In this document: positions 895 through 11,386 of the stretch, piece after piece
Layout of the letters: each line of letters starts with the position of its first letter
Numbering within the stretch: the first letter of the stretch is position 1
Source of the DNA: Candidatus Binatota bacterium
GTDB taxonomy: Bacteria; Desulfobacterota; Binatia; UBA1149
DNA: 64,000 bases
Reading direction: 5' to 3'
Assembly (NCBI GenBank): GCA_012960245.1
Contig: DUBO01000060.1
Location: 62,001 to 126,000 of the forward strand
Notes under the pieces: generated by a model
Seen by the model: only the letters and a program-made list of their open reading frames with translations
What the model was told of the DNA's origin: nothing
Database searches by the model: none
Translations under genes and position numbers: made by a program

Positions 895-921
895 ATTGCT
901 CGCCGAGACTTGCGGTAGCCG

Positions 922-947
922 GTGTTCTACGGGTAGAACACGTTTCA
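922..947. promoter_or_regulatory. Inverted repeat overlapping a KstR-like operator
   Basis: A perfect 9-bp inverted repeat, GTGTTCTAC-GG-GTAGAACAC, occupies 922-941. Overlapping it, 934-947 reads TAGAACACGTTTCA and fits the published mycobacterial KstR consensus TnnAACnnGTTnnA at every fixed position. The site lies 44 bp before the first DUF35 gene, in the promoter gap of the operon. The sequence and symmetry are seen directly. Binding by the TetR regulator encoded at 6041-6613 is inferred from the matching site at that gene's own 5' end. Confidence 0.6.
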
Positions 948-990
948 CTCGTGCGGGGGTATGCTGCCGAGCAGGTCGACGGATAACTGG

Positions 991-1458
991 ATGAGCAGAA
1001 AGGCTGAAACAGGTGAGAACAAGGGCATTCTGACCGCGCCCTACGTGCTTGAGTACAGTTATACGCGCAGCACCGGTCCCGTGCTTGGCCGTTTTCTGAG
1101 CGGCCTGCGCGACAAGAAGATTGAAGGAATACGGACCGCGGACGGGCGCGTCCTGGTTCCGCCCGTTGAAACCGACCCTGTCACCGGTGATGAACTCGAT
1201 GATTTCGTGCAGGTGGGTGAGATTGGAACGGTCACCGCTTGCAGCTGGCTTGCCGAACCGCGGGCCGAACATCCCCTCGACAAGCCCTTCGCGTGGGCTC
1301 TGGTACAGCTGGACGGAGCCGATACAGGCCTCCTGCACGCCGTTGACTGCGGCAGCGCAGAAAAGCTTCAGGTTGGAAGCCGCGTGGAGGTGTCCTGGCG
1401 TGACGAGAGGCACGGTTTCATCACCGATATCGAGTGTTTCAGGCTGGTAGGAGACTGA
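991..1458 (+). CDS. DUF35 OB-fold protein (acyl-CoA associated), first copy
   Basis: A protein of about 155 residues with DUF35 architecture: an N-terminal helix, a short rubredoxin-like segment (about residues 47-58, IRTADGRVLVPP) and an OB-fold to the C-terminus. DUF35 proteins act as partners of thiolase-like enzymes; ChsH2-type DUF35 supports the Ltp2 retro-aldolase of steroid side-chain cleavage. The two CxxC pairs that normally bind zinc are absent, so the ribbon is degenerate. ATG 991 is preferred over ATG 961 because the N-terminal extension looks unrelated to the family, but neither has a strong ribosome site. Its stop overlaps the next start by one base (TGATG), indicating coupling. 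Confidence 0.8.
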   Translation: MSRKAETGENKGILTAPYVLEYSYTRSTGPVLGRFLSGLRDKKIEGIRTADGRVLVPPVETDPVTGDELDDFVQVGEIGTVTACSWLAEPRAEHPLDKPFAWALVQLDGADTGLLHAVDCGSAEKLQVGSRVEVSWRDERHGFITDIECFRLVGD

Positions 1459-1949
1459 TGGCTGAAGATCCCATAACAGGCATCGTGTGCCCCATACGCC
1501 TGGACTACACGATCACGCCGGGTAAGGCGCAGGCGCGTTTTCTCAGGGGCCTCGAAAGCGGCAAACTGCTGGGCCAGCGCTGTCCGGCCACCGGCAAGGT
1601 CTACATGCCTCCACGGGGTTCATCGCCAACCCACGGTCTACCCACCACCGAGGAGGTGGAGGTAGCCGACAGGGGAATCGTCACAACATTCTGCGTAGTG
1701 AACCTCCAGTTTGCTTCCACCGTTCGTGAGATTCCCTACGTGTGCGCTCAGATACTGCTCGACGGCGCCGACATTCCGTTTTTCTTCGTCGTGCAGGAAG
1801 TTGATGTAAACGAAATACGTATGGGTATGCGCGTTGAGGCTGTCTGGCGAGATCCCTCCGAGTGGGGCCCGACGCTTGAGAACATCTTGTTTTTCAAACC
1901 GACCGGTGAAGCCGATGCTCCCCGGGAATCCTACAAGGAGCATGTCTGA
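1458..1949 (+). CDS. DUF35 OB-fold protein, second copy
   Basis: A 163-residue paralogue of the preceding gene. The ribbon segment RCPATGKVYMPP (residues 41-52) keeps one of the four usual zinc cysteines, and an OB-fold follows. ATG 1458 overlaps the upstream stop and is preceded by TAGGAG at 1448-1453, a good ribosome site. The gene ends in TGATG with the next thiolase-like gene, so the two are translationally coupled. It probably pairs with one of the two thiolase-like proteins to form an acyl-CoA-binding heterocomplex. That role follows from known Ltp-DUF35 complexes and is not proven by this sequence. Confidence 0.82.
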   Translation: MAEDPITGIVCPIRLDYTITPGKAQARFLRGLESGKLLGQRCPATGKVYMPPRGSSPTHGLPTTEEVEVADRGIVTTFCVVNLQFASTVREIPYVCAQILLDGADIPFFFVVQEVDVNEIRMGMRVEAVWRDPSEWGPTLENILFFKPTGEADAPRESYKEHV

Positions 1950-3010
1950 TGCGCGACGTAGCCGTGGTTTCGTTCGCCCAGGCTCCCAACCTGAGGGCAG
2001 ACCGCGAGCGCAACGAGGTTGAGATCGTTATGCCGGTGGTGCGCGAGGCTCTCGATAGCGTCGGCCTTAAGCAGAGCGACATTGGTTTTACCGTTTCGGG
2101 CAGCTGCGATTATCTCACCGGCGTGCCTTTTTCTTTCGTCATGGCCCTGGACGCGGTCGGCGCCTGGCCGCCGATTGAAGAGAGCCACGTGGAGATGGAC
2201 GGAGCCTGGGCCTTGTACGAGGCCTGGGTCAGGCTTCAGCATGGCGATATTGACGCCGCCTTGATTTACAGTTTCGGCAAGACCTCGCTCACAGATCTCG
2301 ACAAGGTAATGAGCTGTCAGCTCGACCCCTACACGCTTATGCCCCTGTGGCCTGGTGCCATCAGCCTGGCTGGCCTGCAGGCCAGCGCCATGCTGGCCGC
2401 GGGTACGGTCAGCGAAGCCGATATGGCAGCCGTGGCCTCGCGCAGCCGCGAGGCGGCCCAGGGCAACCCGGCGATTCCCGAAGCGGAAAGTCCCGCCGAC
2501 GTTGACGAGCTGCTGTCGCGCCCACGCGTGGCGCATCCTCTGCGTGAGCACGACATTGCTCCTTCCACCGATGGTGCAGCCGCGATAGTGTTGGTTGCTG
2601 GCGACCGCGCCGCAGAGGTCTGTGACAAGCCGGCGTGGATAAGCGGTATTGACCACAGGGTGGATACCCACGCGCCGGGCAACCGCGACCTGACCACCTG
2701 CCCGTCGGCGCGAATGGCCGGCGAGCGCGCGGGTGTCGGCAGGGGCGGCATCGAAGTCGCCGAGGTATACGCGCCGTTTTCTCACCAGCAGCTGCTCCTC
2801 GCGGGCGAGCTTGATCTTGGCGACGGCGTCGATCTTAACCCCTCGGGTGGTGCGCTGGCGGGCCACACTTTCATGGTGGCGGGGCTCGCGCGCATAGGCG
2901 AAGCAGCCCGGCGCATTCACGACGGCACTGCCTCGAGGGTGCTGGGGCACGCGACGGCTGGTCCCTGCCTGCAGCAGAACCTGGTCTGCGTCATGGAGGC
3001 GGGTCGATGA
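1949..3010 (+). CDS. Thiolase-like protein lacking the nucleophilic cysteine (Ltp/SCP-x-like), first copy
   Basis: A 353-residue thiolase-fold protein. The loop that carries the acyl-accepting Cys in true thiolases reads VEMDGAW (81-87), with Gly at the Cys position. NPSGG (297-301) and His306 of the NPSGG...GH region are retained, but the C-terminal CxG motif is not. EVAEVYAPF (269-277) has a Tyr like that used by Ltp2-type retro-aldolases. This pattern argues against Claisen thiolysis and for an aldolase or acyl-CoA-binding role with a DUF35 partner. It sits between the second DUF35 gene (1-bp overlap) and the second thiolase-like gene (4-bp overlap). Its substrate cannot be read from sequence. 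Confidence 0.82.
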   Translation: MRDVAVVSFAQAPNLRADRERNEVEIVMPVVREALDSVGLKQSDIGFTVSGSCDYLTGVPFSFVMALDAVGAWPPIEESHVEMDGAWALYEAWVRLQHGDIDAALIYSFGKTSLTDLDKVMSCQLDPYTLMPLWPGAISLAGLQASAMLAAGTVSEADMAAVASRSREAAQGNPAIPEAESPADVDELLSRPRVAHPLREHDIAPSTDGAAAIVLVAGDRAAEVCDKPAWISGIDHRVDTHAPGNRDLTTCPSARMAGERAGVGRGGIEVAEVYAPFSHQQLLLAGELDLGDGVDLNPSGGALAGHTFMVAGLARIGEAARRIHDGTASRVLGHATAGPCLQQNLVCVMEAGR

Positions 3011-4161
3011 GCGAGCGCTGCGCCGTTACAGGCGTTGGCCAGACCCGCCACGACGCTGAGCGCAGCGACGTGTCCATGCACGGGCTGGTTCGTGAAGCCG
3101 CGGTGCGTGCCCTGGCTGACGCCGGCCTGGGATGGGAAGACATCGACGCCGTGGTGGTCGGCAAGGCACCCGACCAGTTCGAAGGCGTTATGATGCCCGA
3201 GCTCATGATGGCCGACGCTCTGGGTGCGGTCGGTAAGCCATTGATACGAGTGCACACCGCCGGTAGCGTGGGCGGCTCGACCGGCCTGGTGGCGGCTGGA
3301 CTGGTGCAGGGAGGCGTGCACAAGCGGGTATTGGTGGTGGCCTGGGAGAAGCAATCCGAGGCCGACGCGTCCTGGGTGCTGATGATGAAAATTCCATTCG
3401 CAGCTCCGCTGGTCGCGGGTGCGGGCGGGTACTTTGCACCCTACATTCGCGCTTACATGGAGCGCTCGGGGGCGCCGGCGGATACGGGCATAAAGGTGGC
3501 AGTTAAGGATCGCCTCAACGCTCTCAAGAACCCTTACGCTCACCTCCAGATGCCCGATATCACCGAAGAGATGGTGGCTGATTCGCTCATGCTCTGGGAC
3601 CCCATACGCTACCTCGAGACCTGCCCGTCTTCGGACGGGGCCTGCGCGCTGGTGCTGACCGCCGAGGACGCTCTGGGAAGCTGCCAAAACCCGGCCTGGA
3701 TCGTGTCGAACGCGATGCGCAGCGAACCCACAATGTTTGCGGGCCGCGACGGTGTGAACCCGCAGGCTGGGATCGATTGCGCGGCTGAACTCTACCGAAA
3801 GGGGGGAATCACCGACCCGCGGCGGCAGATAGACGTGGCGGAAATCTACGTTCCCTTCAGCTGGTTTGAGCCGATGTGGATGGAGAACCTTGGGTTTGCC
3901 GAGCAGGGCGAGGGGTGGAAGATGACAATGTCGGGAGCAACCGCGATGGATGGTGATATGCCCATCAATCCGTCGGGCGGTGTGCTTTCCTCCAATCCGA
4001 TAGGCGCGTCAGGCCTGCTGCGTTTTGCCGAGGCGGCCCTGCAGGTAAGAGGCATGGCCGGCGAACACCAGGTGGACGGCGCAAAGCTGGCAATGGGTCA
4101 CGCCTATGGTGGCGGTTCGCAGTACTTCGCCATGTGGCTGGTGAGCAGCGACAAACCGTGA
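3007..4161 (+). CDS. Thiolase-like protein lacking the nucleophilic cysteine (lipid-transfer type), second copy
   Basis: A 384-residue member of the acetyl-CoA acetyltransferase/lipid-transfer group. The nucleophile loop is RVHTAGSVGGS (81-91), again with Gly in place of Cys. The usual GGxxxxGHP region reads NPSGGVLSSNPIGASG, so the general-base His is lost too. The DVAEIYVPF stretch keeps the Tyr seen in its neighbour. The start ATGA overlaps the previous stop. The two thiolase-like genes differ strongly from each other, so they are probably not a recent duplication. The four coupled genes look like two DUF35/thiolase-like pairs; which partners associate is unknown. Confidence 0.82.
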   Translation: MSERCAVTGVGQTRHDAERSDVSMHGLVREAAVRALADAGLGWEDIDAVVVGKAPDQFEGVMMPELMMADALGAVGKPLIRVHTAGSVGGSTGLVAAGLVQGGVHKRVLVVAWEKQSEADASWVLMMKIPFAAPLVAGAGGYFAPYIRAYMERSGAPADTGIKVAVKDRLNALKNPYAHLQMPDITEEMVADSLMLWDPIRYLETCPSSDGACALVLTAEDALGSCQNPAWIVSNAMRSEPTMFAGRDGVNPQAGIDCAAELYRKGGITDPRRQIDVAEIYVPFSWFEPMWMENLGFAEQGEGWKMTMSGATAMDGDMPINPSGGVLSSNPIGASGLLRFAEAALQVRGMAGEHQVDGAKLAMGHAYGGGSQYFAMWLVSSDKP

Positions 4162-4207
4162 AGAGCTGCGCCCCGCCCGCAAGGCTCGCCACTGGGGGAA
4201 GCAACTG

Positions 4208-5017
4208 ATGTCTGAACCCGCACTGCTGGTCGAACGCGATGGAGGCGTCGTTACCCTGACGCTCAATCGGCCCGAAGCCCGTAACGCCTTCAATCCCGAA
4301 ATGCTCTGTGGTTTGGCTGACGCGTGGGACCTGGTAGACGGCGACGACAGCGTGCACGTGGCCATTCTCACCGGCGCGGGCGGTAATTTTTCTGCCGGCG
4401 CTGACCTCGACCAGCTCGTGGGTAAGCTCATGAAGGGCTTGCCCCCTGACAACGAGCACGAAGAACGTATTCAGCAGGACTACTCGATTATCTACAAGGG
4501 CTTTCTCAAGGAGTACCGCCTGGCCAAGCCGTTGTTGGCCGCTGTCGAAGGTTATTGCTACGCCGGCGGCATGGAGATGCTCATGTCAGCCGATATTCGA
4601 GTGGCGGGCGAGGGCGCGCGCATAGCGATTTCTGAAGTCTGCCGTGGCTTGTTTCCCATGGCTGGCACAACAGTGCGCTTGCCGAGACAGATTCCCTACA
4701 CGGTAGCTATGGAGATGCTGCTCACCGGCGCGCCGCTGGACGCCGCCGAGGCGCTGAGGGTCGGCTTGCTGGGCCACGTGGTCAAAGATGGCGGGGCCCT
4801 GGCCAAGGCCAGGGAACTGGCCGACGCGATAGCGAAGAACGGACCGCTGGCTGTTCGGAACATCAAGGCTTCGGTGCTGGAGAGCTCGTGCCTGCCCGAG
4901 GAAAAGGCCTTCGTGCGGGAACTCGAACTCGGCATGGAGGTGATGTCCAGCGAAGACGCCCGCGAGGGTCCAAGGGCTTTTCTTGAAAAACGCCCAGCCC
5001 GCTTCAAGGGAAAGTGA
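4208..5017 (+). CDS. Enoyl-CoA hydratase/isomerase (crotonase) family
   Basis: A 269-residue crotonase-fold enzyme. The oxyanion-hole segments are NFSAGADL (60-67) and YAGGMEM (118-124). Glu123 and Glu143 (ISEVCRG) align with the two catalytic glutamates of classical enoyl-CoA hydratase, so hydratase activity is plausible. It lies 46 bp after the thiolase-like pair and just ahead of a hotdog thioesterase. Hydration of an enoyl-CoA followed by retro-aldol cleavage by a DUF35/Ltp complex would be a coherent route, as in steroid side-chain removal. The acyl chain is not identifiable. Confidence 0.88.
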   Translation: MSEPALLVERDGGVVTLTLNRPEARNAFNPEMLCGLADAWDLVDGDDSVHVAILTGAGGNFSAGADLDQLVGKLMKGLPPDNEHEERIQQDYSIIYKGFLKEYRLAKPLLAAVEGYCYAGGMEMLMSADIRVAGEGARIAISEVCRGLFPMAGTTVRLPRQIPYTVAMEMLLTGAPLDAAEALRVGLLGHVVKDGGALAKARELADAIAKNGPLAVRNIKASVLESSCLPEEKAFVRELELGMEVMSSEDAREGPRAFLEKRPARFKGK

Positions 5018-5018
5018 A

Positions 5019-5717
5019 TTGGCAGACGACACCGACAAGACCCACGCCTGGTGGCAGTCGTCGGCCGTACCGGCGGAAGGCACCTGGGCCGAGAAACGCA
5101 AGCTTGCGGCCAGCCTGCGACGCTTGATAGGGCTGGCGGTGCTTTCTGATCCGGAGCCGGGGGTGCTCGAAACGGCCGCCGGCGAGATGGACAAGATTTC
5201 GCAACAACTCGAGCAGCAGCCGCAACGCGGCAGCCTTGACGCTTTTGCCGAAACTTCCACGGCCGGAAACGTTCACGCGCTCTTTGACCGCAGCCCAGTT
5301 GTGGGTCTTTCCAACCCCCTGTCTCCTCCCATGAGGCTGGAGCTCGAAGGCGACACGGTGCGCGGTTTCGTCAAGTTTGGCTCGGCCTACGAAGGCCCGC
5401 CGGGACACGTTCACGGTGGGGTTGTAGCCGAGCTGTTCGATGAGCTGCTGGGCTTCGCGCAATCAATCACTGGCAGTCCGGGCATGACCGCGACTCTCTC
5501 CATCGACTACCTGCGACCTACACCGCTGCATGTGGACCTTAACTGTCGCGCCTCAGTTGCGCGGGTGGAGGGACGAAAGATCTATGCCGAGGGCGAGCTC
5601 TGCAAGGACGAGATCGTGCTGGCTCGGGGCAGGGGAATGTTCGTGTCGGTCGACCGTAAGCGAATGCAGAAGATGATGGAGCAGGCGGGGCTCCGCCGCG
5701 ACGCTGAAACGGGCTGA
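5019..5717 (+). CDS. Hotdog-fold acyl-CoA thioesterase (PaaI-like)
   Basis: About 232 residues, with a poorly conserved N-terminal region of about 100 residues and a C-terminal hotdog domain. HVHGGVVAELFDELLG is the PaaI-type HGG motif with the acidic catalytic residue on the following helix. TTG 5019 is chosen as the start because AAGGGA (5006-5011) precedes it at normal spacing. TTG 4983 is also in frame but overlaps the crotonase gene and has no good ribosome site. Such enzymes hydrolyse acyl-CoAs, either to release product or to recover free CoA. It is the last gene of the operon. Confidence 0.78.
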   Translation: MADDTDKTHAWWQSSAVPAEGTWAEKRKLAASLRRLIGLAVLSDPEPGVLETAAGEMDKISQQLEQQPQRGSLDAFAETSTAGNVHALFDRSPVVGLSNPLSPPMRLELEGDTVRGFVKFGSAYEGPPGHVHGGVVAELFDELLGFAQSITGSPGMTATLSIDYLRPTPLHVDLNCRASVARVEGRKIYAEGELCKDEIVLARGRGMFVSVDRKRMQKMMEQAGLRRDAETG

Positions 5718-6040
5718 CTCGGCTGGGGGGCACAAGAGCTGCCGCGGGCGGTTATATAACTCAGGCTGGGCTATCCCCCGTTCCCCCGAAAGGGTGGAGG
5801 ATACTGGCCGGAAGCCCAATTTATAAGGGTTTTAAGAACGTCTGGGCTTTGGCCCCCAACTTGCAATATCTTTTGTGTGCGCCTGTTAAAGGCGTACACC
5901 GGCAAGCAGAGATCGGACGACCCCCCTGAGCTCTGTTAGCCGTATTCGGTGTAACCGGCATTCGGGTTCTGCTTCTGGCAGGGCCCGGTGCCGGCGGCAC
6001 CGAATGTTTTTTGCCATGGCGCCGCCGGTAGCAATCTGCT
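5718..6040. other. Intergenic gap between the acyl-CoA operon and the TetR gene
   Basis: No convincing coding frame appears in these 323 bases. The only structures seen are the hairpin followed by a T run near its right end, listed separately, and short AT-rich stretches around 5750 and 5820. No tRNA or known small RNA was recognised. Confidence 0.5.
5986..6012 (+). terminator. Possible intrinsic terminator after the acyl-CoA operon
   Basis: CGGTGCC-GGC-GGCACCG forms a 7-bp GC-rich stem with a 3-base loop (5986-6002). A run of six or seven T follows four bases later. It would stop plus-strand transcription about 270 bases after the hotdog gene and before the opposing TetR gene. The spacer between stem and T run weakens the call. 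Confidence 0.4.
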
Positions 6041-6613
6041 TCAGCCGAGAACGAAACCGGCCGCGACCCTGACCTTGCTGACCACTGCTTCCTGGTCGTG
6101 CAGTCCACCGGCCCAGCCCACCAGCGAAGCGAACCAGACCTGCTGCAGCACCAGCGCTTCGGCAGAGTGATCATTGCCGTTGTTTCCGGTCTCGGGTCCG
6201 TGCAGCGCGGTATCGGTCAGGGCGGCTATGCGCCCGTGAAAGGTTGCTACCTGTTCGGTCAGGTCAGGGTTGGCCGAGGCCACCGATTTGAGTATCGCCT
6301 GGGCCAGTCTCGGTCGCCGGCACATACCGCTGGTGGCCACGGCAAAAACCGACACCACACGATCTATAGGGTTGACCCCACGGGCCGGATTGCTGCTGAG
6401 GTAGCGTTCGAGAGTAGTCACTTCGGCCGCCAGGGCCGCGACCAGGAGGTCTTCCTTGCTGCGAAAATGCCTGTAGAGCGTACCCAGGGCCACACCGGCA
6501 TCAGCAGCTACGTCGCGCAGCCGCACGGCTTCGAATCCCCCTTTCTCGGCCAGGGCAACGGCGGACTCTACAATTCGCTCTGCGCGCTCTTCCACGGCAG
6601 CAAATTGAAACAC
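6041..6613 (-). CDS. TetR-family repressor, KstR-like
   Basis: A protein of up to 190 residues. The N-terminal helix-turn-helix reads VALGTLYRHFRSKEDLLVAAL, split here for length as VALGTLYRHF then RSKEDLLVAAL; it closely resembles mycobacterial KstR, the repressor of cholesterol catabolism. The C-terminal VWFASLVGW...VRVAAGFVLG also follows KstR. The annotated start is GTG at 6613. An internal GTG at 6595 (MEERAERIV) would give a more typical TetR N-terminus; neither has a clear ribosome site. The 5' end carries a KstR-type box, suggesting autoregulation. The ligand is probably an acyl-CoA, as for KstR; that is inference. Confidence 0.85.
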   Translation of the reverse strand: MFQFAAVEERAERIVESAVALAEKGGFEAVRLRDVAADAGVALGTLYRHFRSKEDLLVAALAAEVTTLERYLSSNPARGVNPIDRVVSVFAVATSGMCRRPRLAQAILKSVASANPDLTEQVATFHGRIAALTDTALHGPETGNNGNDHSAEALVLQQVWFASLVGWAGGLHDQEAVVSKVRVAAGFVLG

Positions 6614-6619
6614 GTTACA
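6606..6619. promoter_or_regulatory. KstR-like operator at the 5' end of the TetR gene
   Basis: TGAAACACGTTACA fits TnnAACnnGTTnnA at all eight fixed positions and shares the core AACACGTT with the site at 934-947. It overlaps the GTG start at 6613 or lies just upstream of the alternative start at 6595. It is also about 50 bp upstream of the divergent hydrolase gene, so one bound repressor could control both directions. Confidence 0.6.
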
Positions 6620-6670: not shown

Positions 6671-7744
6671 GTGGGCGCAGCGGCAGCAGTTGAAATATGG
6701 TCTTCAGGCCTGCCGAGACAATGCGCCGTCGCCACCGTGGTAGTGGTGTTGCTTACGCTTTCGCCGGCAGGCGCAGCAGAGCTGCCTGCGCACCATGTTC
6801 CAGCAGGTGGGTTTACCAACCCGGGTTATGTGGACGGTGGCCGCCCCGCCTTTCTAACCGGGATGGGATTCCTGGCGGGAAGAGTGTTCAGGACGTTTCG
6901 CCCGCTTGGTCGTGCCGCCGTCTCGGTGGACGATAGCGCTGCCATGTTTAAGCGTTGGAAGGCGGATCAAAACGCCCCGACGGTAACCTGGATCGGCCAT
7001 TCCAGCCTGTTGGTTCGCCAGGGCGGGGTGTACTTTCTTACCGACCCCATGTGGTCCGAATACGCCAGCCCCATAAAACTCGGCCCGCGCCGCCTCCAGC
7101 CTCCTGGAATGTTGCTGGCCGAACTTCCCGACATCGCTTTCGTCGTGATTTCGCACAATCACTACGATCATCTCGATCTGCCTACATTGAAAACTCTTTC
7201 CGAGCGGGGAAGCAGCTTCGTAGTGCCGCTGGGCAACGCGGCTCTCCTGGGCGATAAGGGCATCGGACCGGTGCTCGAACTGGACTGGTGGCAATCGGTC
7301 AAGATAGATGGCTTGGAGATCACCTGCATTCCGGCCCGGCACTGGAGCGGGCGCGGGCTGCGGGATCGCAACCGGGCTCTTTGGTCCGGCTGGGCTGTCA
7401 AGTCCGAAGACAGGCTGTTCTATTTTGCGGGTGACACTGCCCCTTCCGGCGCCTTCGATGAAATCCGCCGCCGACTCGGAAGACCGACCCTGGCCGCCCT
7501 GCCCGTGGGCGCCTACCTGCCGATAGAGATCATGTCGCTGTCGCACATGAACCCGGAGCAGGCTATAGATGCGGCGGTCAGCCTGGGCGCCTCGAAGACA
7601 GTAGCCGTCCACTTCGGTACTTTTGATCTTGCCGATGAAGCACTCGACGAGCCGCCCCGCCGCTTCAGGGCTGCTTCCACGCTGGCGGCGCGGGGGCCGG
7701 AGGTGGACTGGGTGATGAAAGTAGGCGAGACCCGTGGCTGGTAG
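6671..7744 (+). CDS. Metallo-beta-lactamase-fold hydrolase, probably exported (NAPE-PLD/UlaG-like)
   Basis: A 357-residue protein. Residues about 18-37 form a hydrophobic segment ending in PAGAAE, a likely signal peptide or anchor. HNHYDHLD (from His162) is the zinc-binding HxHxDH motif. ARHWSGRG and FAGDTA supply the later His and the bridging Asp. The sequence resembles the phospholipid-hydrolysing NAPE-PLD/RomA branch of the superfamily. It starts with GTG and is divergent from the TetR gene. A hotdog thioesterase follows after 14 bp, suggesting an operon for lipid or acyl-ester breakdown. The substrate is unknown. Confidence 0.82.
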   Translation: MGAAAAVEIWSSGLPRQCAVATVVVVLLTLSPAGAAELPAHHVPAGGFTNPGYVDGGRPAFLTGMGFLAGRVFRTFRPLGRAAVSVDDSAAMFKRWKADQNAPTVTWIGHSSLLVRQGGVYFLTDPMWSEYASPIKLGPRRLQPPGMLLAELPDIAFVVISHNHYDHLDLPTLKTLSERGSSFVVPLGNAALLGDKGIGPVLELDWWQSVKIDGLEITCIPARHWSGRGLRDRNRALWSGWAVKSEDRLFYFAGDTAPSGAFDEIRRRLGRPTLAALPVGAYLPIEIMSLSHMNPEQAIDAAVSLGASKTVAVHFGTFDLADEALDEPPRRFRAASTLAARGPEVDWVMKVGETRGW

Positions 7745-9373: not shown

Positions 9374-11386
9374 ATGAATCCTTCCCGTTTCGGACTCTCG
9401 CGCCACCCGTTTGACCAACGGGGTGGAGCCGACAATGGGCCGCTGTCGGATGTGTGGGCCGCACTCCTTGCGGAGTTGAGAGCTGGCCTGCAGGCGCCAC
9501 AGGGTATCACCCTGCTCATTGGCGAGTCGGGCACGGGCAAGAGCACTCTTGTCCGCTCTCTCGATGAGAAATTCGGTGACCTCGCCCGGGTGGTCTACGT
9601 TCCCGGGGCAGGCCCCGGCCTTCGGCACCTGCTGGGCGAAGCCCTGACGGGCCTCGGCGTGGAACTGCCGGGCAACAGCGAGGCTGACCTGGTCGAGGCG
9701 CTGCAACAACAGGCGCATAGCCTGGCCGACCGGCAGTGCGCCACCGTCATCATCATTGACGACGCCCAGGATCTACCAGCTAAGACATTGGAGAGGCTCG
9801 CCTCGCTGTTCGGCGACGATCCAGCTGATCACACGATGCTTCACGTCTTCCTCGTGGGCCGGCCTGAACTCCTTGATCGCATGAACGCGGCCTCGGATCG
9901 TAGTGTCCTAAAGCAGCTGGTGCAGGTTTGTCGAATGGATCCTCTCGACAGCGAGGAGTCGCTGGAATACATCCGTATGCGCGTTGAAGAAGTCGGCGGC
10001 TCGGTAGAGGGACTGTTTTCCGCCGAAGCCCTGAGCGGTATCGTTGAGCGTGCCGAAGGCATTCCTGGACGTATCGACGAACTTTGCTGTCGTGCGCTCG
10101 AGGAAATCGACGGCTCCGAGCCGGCCGGCTTGGAGCAGGTGCAAGCATCGGTCGAAGATAACAGAGGGCTTGAGCTGGAGCTCGAAGCAGAAATCATTGA
10201 GGAGCCGGCTGGTGGGGGCAGGGTAGTTGAGCCCGCGTTGCCTGCGGCGCACGTGTTGGGCGAGGATTTCGGTTTGGGGTCCGACACCGAAAGCGGGCGG
10301 CCGCCGAAGGCTTCTCGACGCAGGGCCAGCGGTGTATCCGAATCCACGGATGAAGATGTCGGAGTAGTCGCCAATCGCCGTCGCCTCGGTTTGTGGGCCG
10401 TGGGATTCTTTGCCGTGGTGGCAGGCCTGGCCGCAGCGCTGACCGGAAAAGGGCCGGGCGCGGATTCGATACGGATGGCCCTTGCGCCGGGCGGGCGCGA
10501 TGCCCCTGAGGCCAGCGCTGACGGCAGTAAGGTTACGGCGGCTGGTTTGCAGGAAATGTCGAGGGTCGCAGTTGGTTCGCTGGGCAAGGTCGACCAGAGC
10601 ATGGTGACCGCGGTGCCCGGACTGAAAGTAAAACGTAACAGGGCAGCCGAGCTTGGTGCGCGGCAGCGGCAGACCTTTGGCAAGCCGGTCAAGCCTGCAA
10701 CGAGTGTGGCCAAGGCATCGCCCGGGGGCAGTGCAGCCGACAAGGCGGCCCTTGCGGTCGCCAGCATCGCGCCGGTAGCCGCAAGCCCGGCCAGGGAGCC
10801 TGCTCAAGTTGCGCCGGCCGTAGCGAAACCGGCCGCTGTGAAACTGGCCGCTGTGAAACCGGCCGCTGTGAAACCGGCCGCTGTGAAACCGGCCGCTGTG
10901 AAACCACCAGCGCCTGCTGCTCCGCTTGCTGTCGCTACAGCCTCGCTTGGCGGGGCCAAAGCCAAGCCTCGGGTCGCGGCCGTTAGATTGCCTCCAGCAG
11001 CTTTGCCGGTGGTGGCGCCACCGCCGGCGCTGGTCACGCAGCCGGTAGTGAAAAGACATATCGCGCAACAAGCGCTCAAGCCTGTTCCTGTAAGCAGGGC
11101 TCCCGTCGCAGCGGTTCCGGGGCCCGTGGCTATGATTCCGACCAGTTACTACGGCTTGCAATTGGGGGCGTTCTCTTCGGCGGCCAACGCCCAGGCGCTT
11201 CGCGGCAGGGCTGCCCGCGTGACCGGCGATGTTCACCTCGTCGAAGTCAGTCGCGACGGCGCAATTCTCTACCGAGTGGTCGCGGGGCGTTACCAGACAG
11301 AGGCGGCAGCGGGGCGGGCTAAAACAGCGCTCGCGGCAGCGGGGCTTGGTTCATTCGTCAAGCGTTTCGGCTCGAGCATTAACTGA
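9374..11386 (+). CDS. ExeA/GspA-type AAA ATPase fused to a SPOR domain
   Basis: A 670-residue multidomain protein. ATG 9374 is preceded by GGAGG at 9364-9368. Domains: an ExeA-like N-terminus (FGLSRHPFD); an AAA+ ATPase with Walker A GESGTGKST (50-58) and Walker B VIIIDDAQD (about 126-134); an acidic linker; one transmembrane helix at about 338-356; a long Ala/Pro/Lys-rich periplasmic spacer containing five KPAAV-type repeats (485-509); and a C-terminal SPOR domain (about 590-668, YYGLQLGAFSS). SPOR domains bind septal peptidoglycan lacking stem peptides. The protein therefore probably couples cytoplasmic ATP hydrolysis to the division site, like DamX-type proteins. Confidence 0.85.
   Translation: MNPSRFGLSRHPFDQRGGADNGPLSDVWAALLAELRAGLQAPQGITLLIGESGTGKSTLVRSLDEKFGDLARVVYVPGAGPGLRHLLGEALTGLGVELPGNSEADLVEALQQQAHSLADRQCATVIIIDDAQDLPAKTLERLASLFGDDPADHTMLHVFLVGRPELLDRMNAASDRSVLKQLVQVCRMDPLDSEESLEYIRMRVEEVGGSVEGLFSAEALSGIVERAEGIPGRIDELCCRALEEIDGSEPAGLEQVQASVEDNRGLELELEAEIIEEPAGGGRVVEPALPAAHVLGEDFGLGSDTESGRPPKASRRRASGVSESTDEDVGVVANRRRLGLWAVGFFAVVAGLAAALTGKGPGADSIRMALAPGGRDAPEASADGSKVTAAGLQEMSRVAVGSLGKVDQSMVTAVPGLKVKRNRAAELGARQRQTFGKPVKPATSVAKASPGGSAADKAALAVASIAPVAASPAREPAQVAPAVAKPAAVKLAAVKPAAVKPAAVKPAAVKPPAPAAPLAVATASLGGAKAKPRVAAVRLPPAALPVVAPPPALVTQPVVKRHIAQQALKPVPVSRAPVAAVPGPVAMIPTSYYGLQLGAFSSAANAQALRGRAARVTGDVHLVEVSRDGAILYRVVAGRYQTEAAAGRAKTALAAAGLGSFVKRFGSSIN
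10826..10900 (+). repeat. 15-bp tandem repeat, five units, in the ATPase-SPOR gene
   Basis: The unit AAACCGGCCGCTGTG occurs five times in a row. Unit 2 carries a single C-to-T change that turns Pro into Leu. Each unit encodes Lys-Pro-Ala-Ala-Val in the periplasmic spacer. Because the unit is a multiple of three, changes in copy number would alter spacer length without shifting the frame. Confidence 0.95.

Follow-up and report, generated by a model that had tools for sequence, protein, structure and literature searches.

A KstR-type repressor and conserved operators point to a steroid catabolic regulon in Binatota

Does KstR control of sterol degradation, so far described as an actinomycete trait, extend to a Gram-negative lineage? 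The question is raised by a 64-kb stretch of a Candidatus Binatota contig (DUBO01000060.1, positions 62,001 to 126,000; hereafter the window, meaning the whole stretch analyzed, with coordinates counted from its first letter). KstR and its motif are known from actinomycetes (PMC1995591, PMC3068626), and the mycobacterial protein (Rv3574 / MSMEG_6042) is a TetR-type repressor with a 14-bp palindromic site, TnnAACnnGTTnnA, and an operator in its own promoter (PMC1995591), features that recur in the window. The original prediction, made from the letters of this DNA alone, held that two such operators bracket an acyl-CoA catabolic operon and the gene of its own TetR repressor. Our analysis makes it very probable that a KstR repressor regulates its own gene and represses a dispersed steroid regulon, from which a steroid-CoA would release it.

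We located the predicted operator of the catabolic operon, TAGAACACGTTTCA, at 934-947 on the forward strand, upstream of that operon, and the predicted autoregulatory operator, TGAAACACGTTACA, at 6606-6619, next to the start of the TetR gene and reading TGTAACGTGTTTCA on the reverse strand, which carries this gene. As originally described, both match TNNAACNNGTTNNA exactly and share the core AACACGTT; the whole window contains exactly these two matches. The first site indeed lies in the operon promoter, but the second probably does not overlap the regulator gene: the likely start of the latter is the GTG codon at 6595-6593, which lines up with the orthologue starts, so that the operator lies approximately 10 bp upstream. 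The chance expectation had been put at roughly one match in 64 kb, a figure that shuffling lowered to 0.40 per window; nevertheless, 5 of 100 shuffles reached at least two matches, and the sites of the window taken alone are therefore only suggestive. Scored with a matrix built solely from 47 KstR sites published for mycobacteria (PMC1995591 Table 3), the window sites would rank 25 (934-947) and 38 among those 47, inside the mycobacterial range. Furthermore, the 14-mer at 934-947 is identical to the site preceding MSMEG_3519, a KstR target positive by quantitative reverse-transcription PCR (PMC1995591 Table 3).

The perfect 9-bp inverted repeat reported to overlap the first site was also confirmed at 922-941, with a 2-bp loop (GTGTTCTAC-GG-GTAGAACAC). 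It consists of the left half of the operator opposite a stray half-site, TAGCCGGTGTTCTA, 18 bp upstream (916-929, forward strand), which scored 4.9 with the mycobacterial matrix compared to 21.15 for the operator. Because the congener L053 breaks the repeat yet keeps the operator, the repeat is probably incidental, and we rejected an independent function for it, explaining it by a half-site that neighbors the operator by chance.

The unbiased test of enrichment came from whole-genome counts in the 2.82-Mb window genome (96% complete, 0.13% contaminated). A loose pattern gave 23 sites against 9 for its reversed control, and the stricter TRRAACNNGTTYYA gave 13 against 1. The mycobacterial matrix was applied to 355 kb of stretches that had been selected for holding sites, where it returned 13 sites scoring at least 18; 12 of these lie in promoters, including L032:530, which was scored as inside a gene through a mis-called start and which we counted as a promoter site. 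Strong sites are thus confined almost exclusively to promoters, and these belong to acyl-CoA and steroid genes.

Conservation within the order to which the host probably belongs, UBA1149, extends this picture. The nearest named relatives of the window regulator are from bacterium UBP10_UBA1149 (97% identity) and the metagenome-assembled genome (MAG) NIOZ-UU50 (95%), and their similarity points to a host in this order of Binatota; UBP10 corresponds to Binatota, a group with an order UBA1149 (PMC8262859). The Gram-negative nature of the lineage would follow from that placement. Of the 13 genomes of the order, 11 encode a KstR orthologue, and comparable KstR similarity was not found outside it in a sample of 198 genomes of the phylum. 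All 11 have an operator immediately before kstR, with one half-site degraded in two of them (G174 and G198; GCCACCTGTTCTA in L017 and L048), genomes from which the OBa operon, named here for its first gene, is missing. OBa is present in nine genomes, and in 9/9 an operator precedes the best match by 57-126 bp, as an identical 14-mer in six. Similarly, ipdA is preceded by a TNNAACNNGTTNNA site, 114-133 bp upstream, in all five genomes having the gene. Operators are therefore kept upstream of orthologous genes whose proteins are only 53-62% identical. Nine of the 11 kstR-bearing genomes hold 8-13 strong sites apiece, compared to a single one in each of the two genomes without kstR.

The regulator itself had been called KstR-like on the basis of its helix-turn-helix, and four comparisons substantiated this. 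Its best NCBIfam family is KstR (NF033703, 116.6 bits), followed by one at 50 bits, with FadR at 38; conversely, among NF033703 matches in the genome it ranks first, ahead of a runner-up at 42 bits. M. tuberculosis KstR provides the nearest PDB sequences (E 1e-20). In a phylogeny with thin actinobacterial KstR sampling, 37 window-type sequences and actinobacterial KstR form one clade (support 97/89) apart from the other TetRs of the genome; the actinobacterial proteins are sister to the window-type group (96/87), which is itself weakly supported (91/59). The AlphaFold model (mean predicted local distance difference test score, pLDDT, 93.5) has as its top 23 PDB structural matches only KstR chains, including DNA-bound forms (5fmp, template modeling score 0.89), the steroid-CoA-bound forms 5cw8 and 5cxi, and 3bjb, which we take to be R. 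jostii KstR. Judged from sequence and predicted fold, the window TetR is the KstR orthologue of its bacterium.

What the operators adjoin identifies the regulon. One operator-linked operon encodes KstD (PDB 7p18, E 8e-175) with electron-transfer flavoprotein subunits and an Ltp thiolase; another, ChsE1-ChsH2-ChsE2-ChsH1-Ltp2 (ChsH2 E 4e-41, Ltp2 E 1e-159), corresponds to the IGR operon of mycobacteria. A further operator (G000:C40:29463, the ipdA promoter site) stands beside IpdA (E 2e-87), IpdB (E 8e-61), an IpdC-like FabK-type oxidoreductase and an EchA20-like hydratase, with a KshA-type Rieske oxygenase (E 1e-55) downstream on the opposite side. Pairs of acyl-CoA dehydrogenases, some members IpdE2-like, also adjoin operators, as do a molybdenum hydroxylase, CoA transferases and acetone-carboxylase/hydantoinase-like proteins. 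Thus, in addition to the TnnAACnnGTTnnA-type operator in the promoter of the regulator, operators are found regulon-wide at steroid side-chain and ring genes. Each of the genomes G018, G199 and G200 holds 5-7 KshA-type Rieske oxygenases; across the three, a strong operator occupies the promoter position of nine KshA-type genes, and another three follow kstR immediately. Of the markers of the aerobic 9,10-seco pathway, KstD, KshA-type oxygenases and IpdAB are present in the window genome; for HsaC, a TIGR03213 search gave only weak matches (50 bits). Although the molybdenum hydroxylase could suggest the anaerobic 2,3-seco pathway, we favor an aerobic route because KshA-type oxygenases sit inside the regulon.

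In mycobacteria, the published KstR sites, listed by Rv number (PMC1995591), include those of kstR and the IGR operon as well as those at echA19 and in the ltp4-ltp3 region, and all four recur in the Binatota regulon. The latter differs in its host, in having related genes in Myxococcota, and in including ipdABC-echA20 together with the molybdenum-hydroxylase, CoA-transferase and carboxylase-like genes. In mycobacteria, ipdA-ipdB-ipdC and echA20, which serve the last two steroid rings, are governed by KstR2 (PMC3068626, PMC5380842), which recognizes AnCAAGnnCTTGnT; the Binatota ipdA promoter instead has a KstR-type site. The KstR2 motif gave 3 matches in the window genome against 3 in the control, and none on the contig that carries the ipd genes (C40). 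With KstR-type sites at the C/D-ring genes and no enrichment of the KstR2 motif, a single KstR appears to serve both the upper and lower pathways, which are split between KstR and KstR2 in mycobacteria.

In the mechanism we propose, by analogy with M. tuberculosis KstR for binding, repression and ligand, a KstR dimer would bind the 14-bp palindrome T(A/G)(A/G)AACnnGTT(C/T)(C/T)A with some tolerance, at its own promoter (6606-6619), at the promoter of the OBa-OBb-ltp4-ltp3-echA19-thioesterase operon (934-947) and at about ten others elsewhere in the genome. Bound KstR would repress the regulon that breaks down the side chain and rings of steroids (sterols). Its ligand would be the CoA thioester of some steroid catabolite, probably a side-chain intermediate resembling 3-oxo-cholestenoyl-CoA, by analogy with the M. 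tuberculosis protein. On binding this ligand, KstR would leave the DNA and all of these genes would be induced, the C/D-ring set ipdA-ipdB-ipdC-echA20 among them; the bacterium would presumably then grow on steroids.

We considered whether, in place of cholesterol-like sterols, the substrate might be another polycyclic isoprenoid, such as a hopanoid, a bile acid or a triterpenoid from plants or sponges. The catabolic island with its molybdenum-hydroxylase, CoA-transferase and acetone-carboxylase-like genes, none of which we know from cholesterol pathways, is compatible with this, as are the several KshA paralogues per genome and the weak HsaC; however, the ChsE1-ChsH2-ChsE2-ChsH1-Ltp2 side-chain and IpdAB C/D-ring modules are those of sterol catabolism, and we regard such a substrate as rather unlikely. 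The island occupies a 102.6-kb contig (G000:C28, L027-L032) with six promoter operators and carries, beside the molybdenum hydroxylase, XdhC/MocA-like maturation genes, acetone-carboxylase/hydantoinase-like subunits and type III CoA transferases. Separately, a perfect operator, TAGAACGTGTTCTA, at G000:C51:30365 (L039:8366) has on one side a gene for a FabK-like oxidoreductase, behind which a DUF3604 protein is encoded, and on the other a gene of the sulfotransferase family, a neighbor that hints at sulfated steroids.

A general fatty-acid repressor of the FadR/PsrA type, controlling an ordinary beta-oxidation operon and resembling KstR only as a member of the same family, would account for the many generic-looking acyl-CoA dehydrogenases and crotonases in the regulon. 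FadR of Thermus and Bacillus does share the TetR fold and belongs to the common acyl-CoA-binding class, and such acyl-CoA-binding FadR structures come next after KstR in the fold ranking; they are nevertheless farther from the regulator in both fold (ranks 1-23 being all KstR) and sequence (38 against 116.6 bits), and the steroid markers KstD, KshA-type oxygenase, ChsH2/Ltp2 and IpdAB in the regulon leave this explanation very improbable. Since the genome has further TetR genes, another regulator with the same motif might occupy the sites while the neighboring TetR controls something else; the site directly before kstR in 40 of 75 relatives (see below), the fading of strong sites in genomes without kstR and the identity of the motif with that bound by mycobacterial KstR make this scarcely credible. 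That the two window sites are chance matches without a regulatory role, as two matches in 5 of 100 shuffles might allow, can be dismissed in view of the genome-wide 13 against 1, the nine of nine orthologous operon promoters and the sites upstream of kstR in all 11 kstR-bearing order members.

Returning to the KstR repressor with a dispersed steroid regulon, several observations weigh against it. The score of 116.6 bits is under the curated NF033703 cut-off of 280, for which reason we speak of a KstR orthologue or KstR-type protein and not of an equivalog, and protein identity to M. tuberculosis KstR is only approximately 30%. G174 and G198 retain kstR and have no strong sites genome-wide; their regulon is apparently decaying or re-wired. 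One high-scoring site, L040:7840, truly lies within a gene. The annotation leaves the ring A/B route incomplete, as HsaC-type ring cleavage was only weakly detected, and the relatives that form the new clade are MAG records. Collectively, the promoter-concentrated sites, the orthologous regulator and the conservation of the operator across orthologous genes support the originally predicted KstR-like regulon in a Gram-negative lineage.

Beyond the order, we collected 75 KstR relatives (38-97% identity, one short fragment excepted) in MAGs that carry labels such as Myxococcota, Deltaproteobacteria and Binatota. TRRAACNNGTTYYA occurs within 160 bp upstream of their own kstR in 40 of the 75, compared to 0.011 expected per upstream region searched, and 61 further sites lie in the kstR flanks, recurrently before homologues of the OBa-OBb-ltp4-ltp3 operon, ChsE1 and EchA19. 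Six loci (L076, L077, L099, L103, L108 and L113) have two operators before kstR, 22 bp apart from start to start, an arrangement that suggests cooperative or layered autoregulation. Half-site usage across the kstR loci L052-L126 also differs: self-operators favor TGAAAC (71/96) and target operators TAGAAC (88/122), a preference that might set differing affinities. A Myxococcota group (L070, L074, L082, L088, L089, L092, L095, L098, L101 and L102) has, in place of the palindrome, a TATCAGAAGTTCTA-like sequence that lies about 44 bp upstream of kstR. At many of these loci, kstR trails an OBa...ltp3-kshA run whose operator lies approximately 6 kb upstream, so that it may be autoregulated via the promoter of that run. 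The KstR cluster of L072, from a record labelled Spirochaeta sp. MED672, is nested within Myxococcota sequences in the tree; the record is probably a mislabelled MAG.

Because the recognition sequence and largely the same targets occur in Binatota and many Myxococcota, KstR control is not confined to actinobacteria. A wider proposal, on which we lean marginally towards doubt, is that Actinobacteria, Binatota and Myxococcota share a control unit of KstR plus its operator code, either ancient or acquired by transfer, in which one KstR originally governed the entire sterol pathway, the mycobacterial division between KstR and KstR2 having arisen later. Our literature search, with little coverage of subscription journals, found nothing relevant on KstR in Myxococcota or on steroid degradation in Binatota or Myxococcota, and the words "steroid" and "cholesterol" are absent from the Binatota genome paper (PMC8262859). 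Sterol degradation would be a regulated trait of uncultured lineages absent from the lists of steroid degraders in the literature found; a short DNA motif could serve to locate steroid genes in Binatota and Myxococcota MAGs, and it becomes testable where the KstR regulon arose and how it spread.

Within the window, the forward-strand operon begins with OBa (991-1458), a ChsH2-type OB-fold (DUF35) protein (PF01796), and OBb (1458-1949), a ChsH2-type protein with a zinc ribbon and OB-fold (PF12172, PF01796). Two SCP2-type thiolases follow, one Ltp4-like (1949-3010; PRK07937, 521 bits, cut-off 419) and one Ltp3-like (3007-4161; PRK08313, 665 bits, cut-off 514), the two NCBIfam models corresponding to mycobacterial Ltp4 and Ltp3. 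The operon continues with an EchA19-like enoyl-CoA hydratase (4208-5017), which scored 334 bits with PRK07799 (cut-off 316) and 323 with the EchA19 model (cut-off 400), and with a hotdog-fold thioesterase (5019-5717; PF03061). By the similarity of its predicted products, the operon matches the mycobacterial ltp4-ltp3 and echA19 KstR targets, and the acyl-CoA catabolic role first assigned to it can be refined to part of a steroid (sterol) catabolic regulon. The kstR gene (6041-6595, reverse strand) encodes 184 amino acids, counted from the GTG start indicated by its orthologues. Divergent from it, a metallo-beta-lactamase-fold hydrolase gene (6671-7744, forward strand; PF12706) is a possible second target of the operator at 6606; such a gene is divergent from kstR in L052, L053, L054 and L068 as well. 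Farther along the window, an ATPase-like open reading frame at 9452-11386 contains an internal Ala/Lys/Pro tandem repeat, KPAAVKPAAVKPAAV.

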